Assembly: GCA_022565805.1 (NCBI GenBank)
Contig: JAIULZ010000003.1
Span: 1 to 64,000, forward strand
Direction of reading: 5' to 3'
DNA: 64,000 nt
Source: Balneolales bacterium
Lineage (GTDB): Bacteria > Bacteroidota > Rhodothermia > Balneolales > Cyclonatronaceae
Position numbers and translations under genes: made by a program
Shown here: in pieces, positions 25,092-41,982 of the stretch
How positions within the stretch are numbered: position 1 is the first letter of the stretch
Layout: the number at the start of each line of letters is the position of its first letter
The notes under the pieces: model-generated
What the model saw: the letters and a program-made list of their open reading frames with translations, nothing else
Told to the model about the DNA's origin: nothing
Databases searched by the model: none

Positions 25092-26285
25092 CTAATTAAG
25101 GCTTTGTACATAGTTGAGCCATTTTTCCAGGCCGCTTACCTGTACTTTCTTGTGAACCGGGTAATCTTCGTCTACCGGAATAATCATGTAGTTGACTTCC
25201 GTGTTTGTGTCTTCGATTACGTTCAGGAAGCCTTTTTCAAGCTTAGGTGACAGACTACGCTTGGCGTCGGCGCAGGCCACGGGTACACCTTTTCGCACAA
25301 TTACCATGTCGGCTTCTGCTCCGTGGTGCGTTCTGTAAAAGTAGAGTTTGCAGTTTCCTGGCAGTACGGCCATGGTCTGCTCGACCACAAAACCTTCCCA
25401 AGAGCCGCCAACGGCAATGTTTTGCTGCAGCTGATCCATAGATTCTATATCGAGCAGCGAATGAAAAAATCCGGAATCGCGCACATATACTTTCGGTGCC
25501 TTAACTACGCGCTTTTTTACGTTAATAGCCCATGGCCGAAGTAACCGCAGAATATAAGCGTGCTCAAGGTAGTGCAGGTATCTGGAAATAGTACTCCTGC
25601 TTACCCCAAGCGATCTGCCGATAGTTTCCTGATTTATATGTGTGCCCTGTTGCTGAGCTATTAGAAGCATAAAGGTACGCAGCTTATCGTAATCTGTATT
25701 TAACCCAAGCACAGATAAGTCTCGCTCAACGAAAGTAAAGAGAAAGTCACCCAACCATCTCAAGCCAGATTTATCATTCTTTGAGAGAAAAGCCTTCGGG
25801 AATCCACCTCTGAACCATAACCGGCTGAGCTCAGTTTGTCCGCCAACTTCATGGAATGAAAAGGGGAAGAGCTCTTCATAGGCTATCCGCCCGGCAAGAG
25901 ATTCGCTGGTTTTCCGGATTAGCGTAGGGGATGCCGAGCCGAGAACAAGAAATCTGCCGTTTCTGCGATCTCGATCAACAACCGATCGAAGAATCGGGAA
26001 TAATTCGGGCAGGTGCTGTATTTCATCAAGCACTACTAGCTTATCTGCATTTTGCTCAAAGAAAAGCTCGGGCTCCTGCAGCTTAGACAGGTCCCGGGGT
26101 GATTCAAGATCGAGATATAGCGCTTCCTTTTGCCGCTTACGGGCAATCTGTAAAGCAAGTGTGGTTTTGCCAACCTGTCTTGCTCCGGTAATGGCCACAA
26201 CCGGAGAGTCTGATAATAACTCGGTTATGATGCTTTCTTTTCTTCTATTGTAGGATGGCGCTTCCATAATTATGGGTAATTCCAT
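25092..26285 (-). CDS. DUF4143-type P-loop ATPase (AAA_14/PD-(D/E)xK-like)
   Basis: 397 residues. An N-terminal AAA domain has Walker A GARQVGKTT (34-42), Walker B KLVVLDEIQ (82-90) and sensor-like FLVLGSASP. It is followed by a winged-helix segment (INQETIGRSLGVSRSTISRYL, about 218-237) and the DUF4143 region (GSWEGFVVEQ near 294-303). The C-terminal part has HGAEADMVI (Asp326) and ACADAKRS (Asp340, Lys342), an arrangement like PD-(D/E)xK nucleases, with Asp replacing the usual Glu. The family is abundant and often multi-copy in Bacteroidetes-type genomes, and its function is unclear. Starts are possible at 26285 or, six codons in, at 26267. Immediately upstream lies the 53-bp palindrome array, whose nearest hairpin abuts the start codon and suggests autoregulation through the winged helix. 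Confidence 0.88.
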   Translation of the reverse strand: MELPIIMEAPSYNRRKESIITELLSDSPVVAITGARQVGKTTLALQIARKRQKEALYLDLESPRDLSKLQEPELFFEQNADKLVVLDEIQHLPELFPILRSVVDRDRRNGRFLVLGSASPTLIRKTSESLAGRIAYEELFPFSFHEVGGQTELSRLWFRGGFPKAFLSKNDKSGLRWLGDFLFTFVERDLSVLGLNTDYDKLRTFMLLIAQQQGTHINQETIGRSLGVSRSTISRYLHYLEHAYILRLLRPWAINVKKRVVKAPKVYVRDSGFFHSLLDIESMDQLQQNIAVGGSWEGFVVEQTMAVLPGNCKLYFYRTHHGAEADMVIVRKGVPVACADAKRSLSPKLEKGFLNVIEDTNTEVNYMIIPVDEDYPVHKKVQVSGLEKWLNYVQSLN

Positions 26286-26292
26286 GATCGAA

Positions 26293-26545
26293 TTTCACGG
26301 TAAAAATTTTTTTTTACCGTGAAATATGCTCATGTGATAATCGATTTTCACGGTAATATAAGAAATTTACCGTGAAAATCGATTACAAAATAACTGTTTT
26401 TTATGGTAAGAAAGTATTATTACCGTGAAAAATGCATATATCATAATCGTTCTTCACGGTGTTACTTTTATCTTACCGTGAAATTCGCATATATGATAAT
26501 CGATTTTCACGGTAAAAAGTGCTCACCTACCGTGAAAATCGATTA
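26293..26545. repeat. 53-bp-periodic array of inverted repeats (operator-like)
   Basis: Five tandem units start at 26293, 26346, 26399, 26452 and 26505, exactly 53 bp apart. Each has TTTCACGGTAA, about 10 variable bases, then TTACCGTGAAA (right arms at 26314, 26367, 26420, 26473 and 26527). The left arm of unit 3 is decayed (TTTTATGGTAA) and unit 4 reads CTTCACGGTGT. The 21-base intervals are also related: ATAATCGAT ends three of them, and its inverse ATCGATTA begins the other two. 53 bp is close to five helical turns, so all sites face one side of the helix. It sits directly upstream of the ATPase start codon. Confidence 0.9.
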
Positions 26546-26663
26546 TATAGAAGGGATTAATATTGACTTTATTTGCAAGTCTATATTTATATTTCTTCTC
26601 TTAAAATCTTGGAAACCAGTTTAAGGAAGCTTTGAGAAACCAAAAGATTTAGTCGTATTCTAG

Positions 26664-26770: not shown

Positions 26771-29700
26771 CTATGTCCAGCTTGTCACTACTTTACTTCC
26801 TTCTGCAGATGTATTTTCAATTCGTAAATAGACATCAATTTCTTGTTGTAACTCTTCTACGTGCGATATAATACCGACTACCCTCGATTCCTGACGAAGA
26901 GATTTTAGGGTGTTAAATACAGTTTGGAGAGATTCTTTGTCGAGCGAACCGAACCCTTCATCCAGAAAGAAAAAGTTTTGCCGGGTTTTATTTCTTTGCT
27001 GTACGCTTTCTGCAAGAGCAAGGGCCAGACATAAAGAAGCCTGAAAGGTTTGTCCACCAGATAGCGTTTTTACGCTTCGCAACCGGCCGTCGTTTAAATA
27101 ATCCCGCACATGAAAATTATTTTTATCGGTTAATTCCAGTCTCAGCTGCTGACGCGTTAATACATAAAATCGTTTGTTTGCAGTATCACAAAGCTGTCGC
27201 AGATAGACCGATGAAATGTAGTTTACGAAGCCGCTGCTCGAGAATAGTTTTTTTAACACATCGAGGTCATTTAAACGAGCATCCAGAAGATCGATTTCTT
27301 TTTGAAGCTTTCGCTTGGTTGCGAAGTCCGTCTTTAGTTTTTCGGCTTGTCTTGCAGCGGCGCCGCTGTTTTCTATGAGCTGATCTACCTCGTTTGTAAC
27401 AAGATCAATCTCCTTCTTAAGCTCGTTAAAAGCGTTTTCATCGAAAGTTTGTGTGCCTAATTCTGTGTCAAGTTCGGCTTTCTGAATCTCCGCAGAATGC
27501 AGCTCTCTTTTAAAGCCATCTATTTGGTTTCTTAGCTTTTCTGTGTTCGGCTCGGCTGCCAGAATAGAGGCCACTTCTTCGGTCGATTCGAACTCAGAGT
27601 TGCTTAGCCCGGCAAGTAATTTTTCGTTGGCTTCTTTATAATTACTTTCTGTTAATTTGAGCTGCTTTTTCGTTTGTGAAAGCTGTGTTTCCGTTACAGT
27701 AAGCCGGGTAGAGAGCTCTTCCCGCTTATTTTTCAGCTGCTCATATCTTTCATCCGTTAACTGAATCTCAGCCCGAAGCTGTCGCATTTCTGTGTTGATC
27801 GTCCCCGCATCAATCAAACCAAAATCTGTATATGTTATGGACTTGAGGCTTTCAATAAGCGACGATTCTGCTCCCTGCAGTTTGTTCAGCCGGCCATCGA
27901 GTGAGCTCAATATCTCTTTTTGGTTTTCAGAGGCTTCAGATTCTTTGTCCATTTTCTTCAGTAGCTCTTTTAGTTTCTGCTGAAGCGCCTTAATTTTATT
28001 TTTGGCCAATTCTTGTCGCTCAAGCTCCGCCTGAAATTTGGTCTTTGATTGCGGGTCATAGACTTCCCAAACAAACTCTTTTTCATGCGCTACCTGCTTG
28101 CCTTTCAATTCCTTTTGCTGCTTATTTAGCTCTTCATACTGCTCCCGCGTTTCATTCATTTTGCCACCAAGCTCGGCATAGCGGCTTTTTAAATTTCCGG
28201 CTTTCTCGAGCTTTTCTTTGGTAATCAGCAGTAGATTTTCCACCTTAGCTATTTCTTTGCTTGAGTCATTTTTGAGAGGAGAAGGGTGCTCGTTCGAACC
28301 ACAAAGCGGGCAGGCGCTTCCCTCATGCAGTGCATTAGCAAACTCCCCTAATTTTTGGTGAACTTTTAAGTGACTTAATTGATTCTGCAGCTCTTCAGAC
28401 TGCTTGTATGTTTCTGTAACAAATGACCCAAGCTGCTGTTGCACTTCTTTCAGGCTTAAATCGCTGCTAAAGCTTGTCTCAAGCTGTAAATTAGACTCTG
28501 CGATTCCCTTTCGGAGGTTTTCATTAATAGTCTGAATTCGCTTCTCAACGGTGCTCAGCTCATTTTGCTTTGCAGCGGCGGCATCAGAAATATCCTGCTT
28601 ACGATGGTACCATTTTTCAATTTCGTAGAGCTCTTTCTCATCGGTAATGGAGTCCTGTTTTTCAGCAATACTGCTTTCCAGCTTTTGCTTTTCCTCACGC
28701 TTTTCAGCCAGCAATAGCGCAAACTGCTCCAGTTCTTTTTTGATCTTTTTTCTTTGTTGCGAAAGGGCCGCAATTTCCTGCTCATTAATCTTTATTTGCA
28801 GCAGAGTTTCATAATCTGCCAGCTTTGTTTTTCGCGCATCCCGCACTGCATAATCATTGCTAACCTTCTCCCACTCTTCGGCAATAGCATTTAGCTGCGA
28901 CTGTATTTCAGCCAGATTTTTTTGGCCTTGCTCAGTCTCAAGGTTTAAGTTTTTTAGCTCATTTTTGAGTCTTCTCTTTTGGTTTAAGGGCTCAGAAAAC
29001 AGGCGCAAACAGCGCTCATAACGGCGAAGTTTTTCTTCCAGCGCCATAATTTCGGGTTGCTGATTGCTCAGTTTTTGTAGCCGGTCTTTAAGCTCTTCAC
29101 GCTTCAGATGCTTTCCTTTCTTTTGCTCCAGAGCGGCAAAGGCATCCGTTTTTTCTATTTTCAACTTCCGTTTCGAATCCAGTTCCTTCCGTAAAGTGGC
29201 CGCTTTTTCTTCATGCAGGGTGATGCTCTCCTCGCTCAAATCTTCATACTGAAGCATTTGTCCGCGGAGATTTTCCATTTTCCCAGTGCTACTCTTTATG
29301 AGAATACCCGTTTGCAAGGAAAACTCAAAACGGTCTAAGTTGAAGATTTCCTTTAGCATTCTCGTGCGGTCGGCATCGCCAAGCTGTAAAAACTCCTGAA
29401 ATTTCCCCTGCGGAATAATAATGGTCCGCCTGAAATTGTCGTAGCTCAGGCCAATAATATCGGCAGGGTTAGATTCTTCGACCGCCTGCCAGTCACCGCC
29501 TATTCGCTGAAAAGTACGTCTGTTAAACGTTCTAACGTTTTCAAAATCATTTCCTGCTCGTTTGCCTTCCACGATAAAGCGCCAGTCTTCATCGCGGTGG
29601 TTGGTGCACTCGAAATCGATGAGCAGGCTGTTCGATTTCAGGTTCATCATGTTATAGTTTCGCTTATCCTGTTTGTTGAGCCGCTCTGTTTCTCCGTAAA

Positions 29701-29854
29701 TGGCATATGAGATGGCTTCAAGTACCGAAGATTTTCCCGAGCCCACCGTACCGAAAATGCCAAATATCTGAGACTCAAGTAGTCTTTCGAAGTCGATGGT
29801 TTGCTTTTCCTGATAGGAGTATAGCCCTTGTATAGTTAGTTTTTTTGGAAGCAT
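26771..29854 (-). CDS. sbcC: Exonuclease SbcC (SMC-like ATPase subunit)
   Basis: 1027 residues. ATPase subunit of the SbcCD nuclease, which opens DNA hairpins and trims protein-blocked double-strand ends. Walker A FGTVGSGKSS (about 34-43), then two long coiled-coil arms meeting at a zinc hook CPLC (Cys515, Cys518), and a C-terminal half with the ABC signature LSGGQTFQASL and Walker B FFFLDEGFGSLD. Length and order are normal for SbcC/Rad50. Its ATG overlaps the sbcD stop by one base (TAATG at 29854), so the pair is co-translated. It is the last gene of the sbcDC unit, with the hairpin at 26664-26714 beyond it. Confidence 0.96.
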   Translation of the reverse strand: MLPKKLTIQGLYSYQEKQTIDFERLLESQIFGIFGTVGSGKSSVLEAISYAIYGETERLNKQDKRNYNMMNLKSNSLLIDFECTNHRDEDWRFIVEGKRAGNDFENVRTFNRRTFQRIGGDWQAVEESNPADIIGLSYDNFRRTIIIPQGKFQEFLQLGDADRTRMLKEIFNLDRFEFSLQTGILIKSSTGKMENLRGQMLQYEDLSEESITLHEEKAATLRKELDSKRKLKIEKTDAFAALEQKKGKHLKREELKDRLQKLSNQQPEIMALEEKLRRYERCLRLFSEPLNQKRRLKNELKNLNLETEQGQKNLAEIQSQLNAIAEEWEKVSNDYAVRDARKTKLADYETLLQIKINEQEIAALSQQRKKIKKELEQFALLLAEKREEKQKLESSIAEKQDSITDEKELYEIEKWYHRKQDISDAAAAKQNELSTVEKRIQTINENLRKGIAESNLQLETSFSSDLSLKEVQQQLGSFVTETYKQSEELQNQLSHLKVHQKLGEFANALHEGSACPLCGSNEHPSPLKNDSSKEIAKVENLLLITKEKLEKAGNLKSRYAELGGKMNETREQYEELNKQQKELKGKQVAHEKEFVWEVYDPQSKTKFQAELERQELAKNKIKALQQKLKELLKKMDKESEASENQKEILSSLDGRLNKLQGAESSLIESLKSITYTDFGLIDAGTINTEMRQLRAEIQLTDERYEQLKNKREELSTRLTVTETQLSQTKKQLKLTESNYKEANEKLLAGLSNSEFESTEEVASILAAEPNTEKLRNQIDGFKRELHSAEIQKAELDTELGTQTFDENAFNELKKEIDLVTNEVDQLIENSGAAARQAEKLKTDFATKRKLQKEIDLLDARLNDLDVLKKLFSSSGFVNYISSVYLRQLCDTANKRFYVLTRQQLRLELTDKNNFHVRDYLNDGRLRSVKTLSGGQTFQASLCLALALAESVQQRNKTRQNFFFLDEGFGSLDKESLQTVFNTLKSLRQESRVVGIISHVEELQQEIDVYLRIENTSAEGSKVVTSWT

Positions 29855-41362: not shown

Positions 41363-41982
41363 TATTCTTCTGTAACAATAATTCTTTCATACCGTCATAC
41401 TAAATACGTACTGTGTATTTTTACCAGAAGAAGATTCTGCAAACTAATTTTTTGCCTGTTTCCGGCCTAGTAGCCTGCGTTATTAACGATTATAACGATT
41501 ATAACGATTATGGAGCTGAATACGCACAAAGCAAAGAAGTTTTCAAATCGCTCTTTGTAATAACAAATACCTGCTACTATAAAGATTTATTCGTGTAATA
41601 ATTGAACAGCAATTGGGTACGCAAATTCAGGTTTACAATAGCCTGGCCTAACCGAAATTGCTTTTCGGCAAGGCATAAGGCCTGTGGCCGAATAGCTTTG
41701 GAAACAGCAAGAACCTGCAATTTCATAAGAAGTCTTGTAATTTAGGTAAATGAACGCTACTTTATTTTGCTAGACTAAATGTCTCAGATATTCGTTAATA
41801 ATACATTGAGAAATTTATCTTAATAATTAATTTTTATAGTCTTGCTGGCAAACTTCGGTTAGCTAACAAGACTATCTTTGCAGGCCGGCACAATGCCGTT
41901 AGCAGTTCTGTAAATCGGATAGATTGCTATAGAATACAGCCTGTTTTTGAACTAACATGTAACCCAAAGCGGATTTTAACAC
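41348..41982. other. Intergenic region upstream of the sigma factor gene
   Basis: 635 bp. Contains a short 9-bp tandem repeat (ATTATAACG at 41489-41506, with partial copies before and after, 41482-41512). The frame at 41413-41598 follows the repeat (DYNDYNDYG) and is not supported as a gene. The sigma-factor promoter must lie here, but I could not place it with confidence. Confidence 0.4.
41482..41512. repeat. Short 9-bp tandem repeat
   Basis: The unit ATTATAACG occurs at 41489-41497 and 41498-41506, followed by a partial copy and preceded by a shortened ATTAACG. A minor slippage repeat. Confidence 0.8.

Follow-up and report, generated by a model that had tools for sequence, protein, structure and literature searches.

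Five palindromes in a 53-bp register lie at positions 26293-26545 of the analysed window, a 64,000-nucleotide stretch of DNA from a Balneolales bacterium, directly before the minus-strand open reading frame 25092-26285, which encodes an AAA_14/winged-helix/DUF4143 ATPase of the PDC-S01 family (397 amino acids). From comparative sequence analysis, the array is probably a gene-private, cis-acting operator that is bound cooperatively, on one face of the helix, by the encoded ATPase itself and serves autoregulation. The initial annotation had described the array as a local feature beside a DUF4143 ATPase. It is real at that place, but its scope was understated, since a palindrome at the start codon is a trait of the whole family.

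All five arm pairs were found where they had initially been placed, with the 53-bp period. The left arm TTTCACGGTAA is exact at 26293, 26346 and 26505, and the right arm TTACCGTGAAA at 26314, 26367, 26420 and 26473. The conservation claimed for the arms holds for these seven, but the left arms at 26399 (TTTTATGGTAA) and 26452 (CTTCACGGTGT) carry two and three mismatches, respectively, and the right arm at 26527 carries one, together with the one-base slip (+1) already reported for the array end. Also confirmed was a 20-bp block at 26337-26356 that recurs identically at 26496-26515, 159 bp or 3 x 53 away. The clearer natural unit is an imperfect palindrome of about 43 bp, TTTACCGTGAAAATCGATTAT-nnn-ATATGCGATTTTCACGGTAAA (43-45 bp), which with a spacer of about 10 bp gives the 53-bp period. 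The array holds four full units of this kind and two outer half-sites. Unit 1 (TTACCGTGAAA ... TTTCACGGTAA, 26314-26356), closest to the gene, and unit 4 (26473-26515) have both arms exact; units 2 (26367-26409) and 3 (26420-26462) each have one of the degenerate left arms. The gene-proximal half-site ATGATCGAATTTCACGGTAA (26284-26303) extends to the annotated start codon, and the gene-distal half-site (26527-26546, with TACCGTGAAAATCGATTAT at 26528-26546) is shifted by one base. The array unit farthest upstream is about 250 bp from the start. The ATAATCGAT element had been thought to alternate in orientation; strict alternation did not hold, the five intervals reading +,-,+,+,-, because only one inner half of each 43-bp unit is well preserved (ATAATCGAT), the other being degenerate and ATATGCG-like.

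Arm matches with at most two mismatches number nine in the array (shuffle mean 0.23, maximum 3 in 1000), and one 11-mer family is present there in eight copies against a null maximum of 3. Over the whole window, ten one-mismatch arm matches occur where 1.4 are expected. The exact 11-mer arm has seven occurrences in the 4.47-Mb genome, all of them inside the array, and the 110 genome-wide matches with at most one mismatch are background, close to the 103 of a reversed-pattern control. A sigma-70 scan at the array gave nothing useful, and a role of the palindromes as terminators was ruled out by a terminator scan, which found none. Elsewhere in the window, a short tandem repeat with 3.1 copies of TAACGATTA is located at 41484-41511.

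The neighbouring ATPase matches the profiles of the PADLOC candidate defence family PDC-S01 over residues 5-350 (E 9.4e-89), as do 57 of 57 diverse aligned relatives. Its AAA_14 domain comprises residues 27-147 (25845-26207, minus strand), with Walker A residues G34-K40-T41 and Walker B residues D87-E88. Among 113 proteins, G34, G39, K40 and D87 are conserved in 100%, E88 in 93% and T42 in 92%. A winged-helix/HTH (wHTH) region follows at residues 214-252 (25530-25646, minus strand), its recognition helix at about 228-240, within a DUF4143 profile match at residues 187-336 (25278-25727, minus strand) that also contains E297 and E324/D326; a D340-x-K342 pair lies just past that match (25260-25268, minus strand). 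E297, E324 and D326 are invariant in 113 relatives, and (E/D)340-x-K342 is kept in about 91-93%. Together these residues fit the pattern of a PD-(D/E)XK nuclease, the fold being a prediction, and PDC-S01 has been assigned in the literature as an ATPase fused to PD-(D/E)XK (PMC12988326). An AlphaFold2 model built from just five sequences had a mean pLDDT of 46.5, too low to support the fold, and a PDB sequence search yielded no matches beyond generic ATPases plus two Walker-type ATPases of archaea (2fna, 2qen). Judging by the orthologue alignment, the true translation start may be Met7 (26267).

Conservation of the ATPase within the genus equals that of ClpB, and synonymous sites are saturated, which speaks for long residence of the gene. 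There is no support for recent horizontal transfer into the window genome, the synonymous divergence being that of ClpB. Viral contigs yielded no relative, and the 11 matches in phage records are all distant. The SbcC encoded on the other side of the array (26771-29854) is 52% identical to its counterpart in the related genome G097, compared with 86% for the ATPase and 81% for ClpB.

The array travels with the gene. Whether arrays recur upstream of orthologues was a question raised by the initial annotation, and they do so immediately upstream of the gene in all four of the closest relatives from outside the genome set (L006-L009, 59-86% identical), while related palindromes are found in the upstream regions that were read of further homologues of at least 46% identity; at L014 the array sits about 140-230 bp upstream. 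In G095 and G097 the gene order is sbcC-array-ATPase-clpB, whereas by eye sbcC adjoins a DinB-like gene in G093 and G096. The genes at L007, L008 and in G093 have neighbourhoods other than sbcC and still carry the array, which therefore belongs to the gene and not to the place. In G093 (C1:1361667-1363226; loci L048 and L013), a 136-bp piece of array plus flank is repeated downstream of the ATPase with 88% identity. The gene is thus flanked by arrays on both sides, perhaps as the scar of a tandem duplication.

The spelling of the arms shifts between groups (TTTACCGTGAAA, TTTACCATGAAA, TTTACCCTGAAA/TTTACCCCGAAA), and the partner arm shifts to match. This compensatory variation is visible on both sides as ACC[G/A/C]TGAAA / TTTCA[C/T/G]GGT, and at the two C-G positions that flank the variable one pairing is kept in 26 of 26 cases. 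The unit of about 43 bp and the 53-bp period are retained while the arm sequence changes. Approximate direct repeats were detected at a lag of 53 in 11 loci and of 54 in six (14 distinct loci; shuffles gave 0.23 per lag), so that the 53-bp arrangement does recur before DUF4143 ATPases, even at loci with unrelated motifs (L055, L062). These loci are related to each other, and the count is therefore evidence of conservation, not of 14 separate origins.

Arrays scattered apart from ATPase genes would have spoken against the association. An exact search of 240 Rhodothermia genomes found the palindrome in four, each time at this ATPase gene, and no orphan copies away from it. The arms are nearly unchanged relative to G097 despite a difference of 67.5% at the four-fold degenerate sites of the gene, a contrast that points to selection on the array.

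Sites of dyad symmetry over a gene's own start occur across the family, not only at the window ATPase. The best inverted repeat between -85 and +15 of the start, with start codons picked by rule, was compared with dinucleotide shuffles (p<=0.05, floor 0.01) in test sets that share a few genes. Among Rhodothermia homologues, 41 of 72 had a palindrome at p<=0.05, 28 of them at the floor, whereas the three control regions gave 4, 2 and 4. A second set, made up of Bacteroidota homologues and of plasmid-borne homologues from Pseudomonadota, Deinococcota, Chlamydiota and Actinomycetota, gave 31 of 42 (5, 0 and 1 in control regions), and paralogues in G096 and G093 gave 15 of 25, compared with 1 of 25 in the control. 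The starts of other genes scored in 9 of 56 cases on the same plasmids and in 4 of 28 in the window, a count that includes the window ATPase gene itself. Family palindromes have a median centre of -26 and a median span of 39 bp, and their motif depends on the subfamily; one example, from rhizobia, Acidithiobacillus and Rhodothermia, is ATCCTTGCAAAT...GCAAGGATG. About one-third of family members fail the test, which counts against a family-wide operator reading; some of these have direct-repeat or imperfect versions when inspected by eye (L120, L138, L144). One PDC-S01 relative, at L140 on an Acidithiobacillus caldus megaplasmid, overlaps a downstream gene with an Xre/MbcA/ParS-type antitoxin domain, possibly a two-gene arrangement.

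The palindromes are also private to each gene. The same-genus genomes G096 and G093 carry 16 and 14 DUF4143 genes, respectively, versus five in the window genome, a strong lineage-specific expansion. Seven orthologous pairs of candidate operators between these two genomes had a mean score of 31.4, six of the seven above every shuffle, compared with 7.7 for non-orthologous pairs, 8.0 for paralogues within a genome and 7.8 for shuffled DNA. Orthologues thus share their candidate operators and paralogues differ, as expected of operator specificity. A paralogue in the window genome (L001, G000:C96:8596-8681) has its own three-unit array, TTTGGTGAAnnTAATCACCAAA, with a 32-bp period (about three helical turns), which occurs nowhere else in that genome. 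One private site per gene is predicted by self-recognition and not by a shared regulator. Before another DUF4143 gene, a perfect 58-bp palindrome, TGACTGAATTAACGTAAATTGCGTCAGTTAACTGACGCAATTTACGTTAATTCAGTCA, is identical in two species (L160 and L170; G096 C158 and G093 at 4.16 Mb).

In the mechanism proposed here, the ATPase-nuclease would bind the 43-bp palindromes through its winged helix, as dimers or larger assemblies. Since the units are 53 bp, or five helical turns, apart, successive complexes would be placed on one DNA face, where they could cooperate. The array extends to the start codon, and its occupancy would for that reason shut off or throttle transcription of the ATPase gene itself, holding down the level of a nuclease that could do harm; repression would be lifted by an invader, by DNA damage or when the protein is lost. 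Each family member would recognise its own spelling, so that paralogues in one cell would not cross-regulate each other. We infer the identity of the binder, repression rather than activation on binding, the trigger and a purpose in defence from the arrangement of the sites and the domains of the protein. A hint, in the form of a published sign of inducibility, comes from the AAA_14/DUF4143 gene TT_P0211 of T. thermophilus, which one table row gives as 6.6-fold higher with plasmid DNA (PMC4406477); the likely gene was assigned solely from its place on pTT27, and the palindrome upstream of it is weak to modest (p 0.025).

Which part of the protein would read the motif was approached by partial Mantel correlation. 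Motif similarity correlated with the wHTH region at r 0.16 given the AAA domain and at 0.08 given the AAA and nuclease domains; the values were 0.13 for the recognition helix, 0.26 for the nuclease domain and -0.06 for the AAA domain. All of these values are low and carry a phylogenetic confound, the nuclease domain and the two ends of the protein giving the highest; they are compatible with recognition by the wHTH region, without singling it out.

Several other explanations can be weighed against autoregulation by the ATPase. The array might be mainly an assembly or licensing platform, where the ATPase oligomerises for its storage, activation or orientation, in the manner known from iterons or centromere-like repeats, promoter control being secondary. 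Up to five units at a fixed helical phase exceed the needs of a simple repressor, the farthest unit is some 250 bp from the start, and G093 has its array duplicate downstream of the gene as well; yet in most family members a single palindrome covers the start codon (centre at a median of -26), which is the placement of an operator, and no arrays occur away from the gene in the 240 genomes, so that this explanation is possible but rather unlikely. Dedicated regulators are the usual binders of palindromic operators at promoters, and a separate transcription factor might be the binder here too. The unrelated palindromes among the paralogues of one genome would, however, demand one dedicated regulator each, no regulator gene consistently adjoins family members across the contexts seen, and the exact palindrome has no other sites in the genome; a factor of this kind is improbable.

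It is similarly doubtful, and if anything slightly more so, that the palindromes work as RNA, in the form of leader hairpins that block or tune translation. The sense strand of the array has a very stable predicted RNA fold (-112.7 kcal/mol, z -13.3) and an arm contains or adjoins the start codon in many members, but long DNA palindromes trivially fold well as RNA. Mismatched pairs in 26 array units show no wobble excess (G-T 26, A-C 32), as DNA dyads would give, although the single start palindromes across the family lean weakly the other way (G-T 19, A-C 9). An Rfam scan of the array gave nothing above gathering scores; its sub-threshold matches are eukaryotic and miRNA-like, noise expected from any long hairpin. 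Helical phasing at 53 bp would be meaningless for RNA, and this phasing at five turns, with the conservation far upstream, fits a role as DNA. Least probable of all, and very unlikely, is a mobile or homing element comprising the ATPase-nuclease, with the palindromes as its termini or as the sites it recognises. Occurrence in the class is patchy (60 of 245 genomes), genomic positions differ within one genus, paralogues are many in two relatives and the G093 gene has an array duplicate on its other flank. Against this, the array is normally one-sided, G093 alone having a downstream copy, the 240 genomes hold no orphan arrays, and the long residence of the gene, judged by comparison with ClpB, does not suit a mobile element. 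A comparison at sbcC also found no clean empty site, the flanks differing between G093/G096 and G095/G097.

Autoregulation of dangerous effectors through palindromic operators is a known principle, as in C proteins, toxin-antitoxin systems and RptR (PMC12255303). The C proteins of type II restriction-modification systems likewise tune a dangerous nuclease by binding palindromes, the C-boxes, before the gene (PMC12255303), but they are small, separate regulators, whereas here regulator, ATPase and nuclease would be a single predicted polypeptide. RptR, from restriction-modification defence islands, represses itself through several phased palindromic repeats upstream of its own start (PMC12255303). 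Homologues of RptR keep the same sites, palindromes of 6 bp set in 9-bp repeats, in contrast to the units of about 43 bp with a 53-bp period described here, whose sequence differs between paralogues. Toxin-antitoxin operators are generally known for autoregulation by a DNA-binding subunit at a self-specific operator, in the service of a potentially harmful effector (PMC12255303); the window ATPase differs in that no separate antitoxin gene is seen, wHTH region and effector being joined in one protein.

PDC-S01 has been reported as the fourth most common prokaryotic defence system, with 29,494 occurrences in Bacteria and 9,986 in Archaea, and is a candidate family without validated function or mechanism, experimental validation being pending for most PDCs (PMC12988326). 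The window ATPase is a member by profile, like its relatives. In the openly licensed papers searched, no description was found of private operators, 53-bp arrays or any other cis-acting operator for this family. The principle of autoregulation and the PDC-S01 label are thus known; the private palindromes and the 53-bp arrays appear to be new for PDC-S01 and, as far as the sequences indicate, of wide reach.

Each PDC-S01 member would thereby gain a candidate cognate DNA site, available as a defined 43-bp probe for EMSA, footprinting, reporter and structural work. The many natural pairs of protein and candidate operator with unrelated sequences would be useful for the study of wHTH specificity and for orthogonal gene switches, and a specific cooperative assembly follows as a prediction from the constant 53-bp geometry. 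More tentatively, members of the family may in general have, at their own gene, a palindromic stretch of DNA that serves as a private address, where the ATPase-nuclease oligomerises at exact helical phase; beyond feedback, this address would then set how the nuclease is held inactive and how it is released upon the arrival of foreign DNA.
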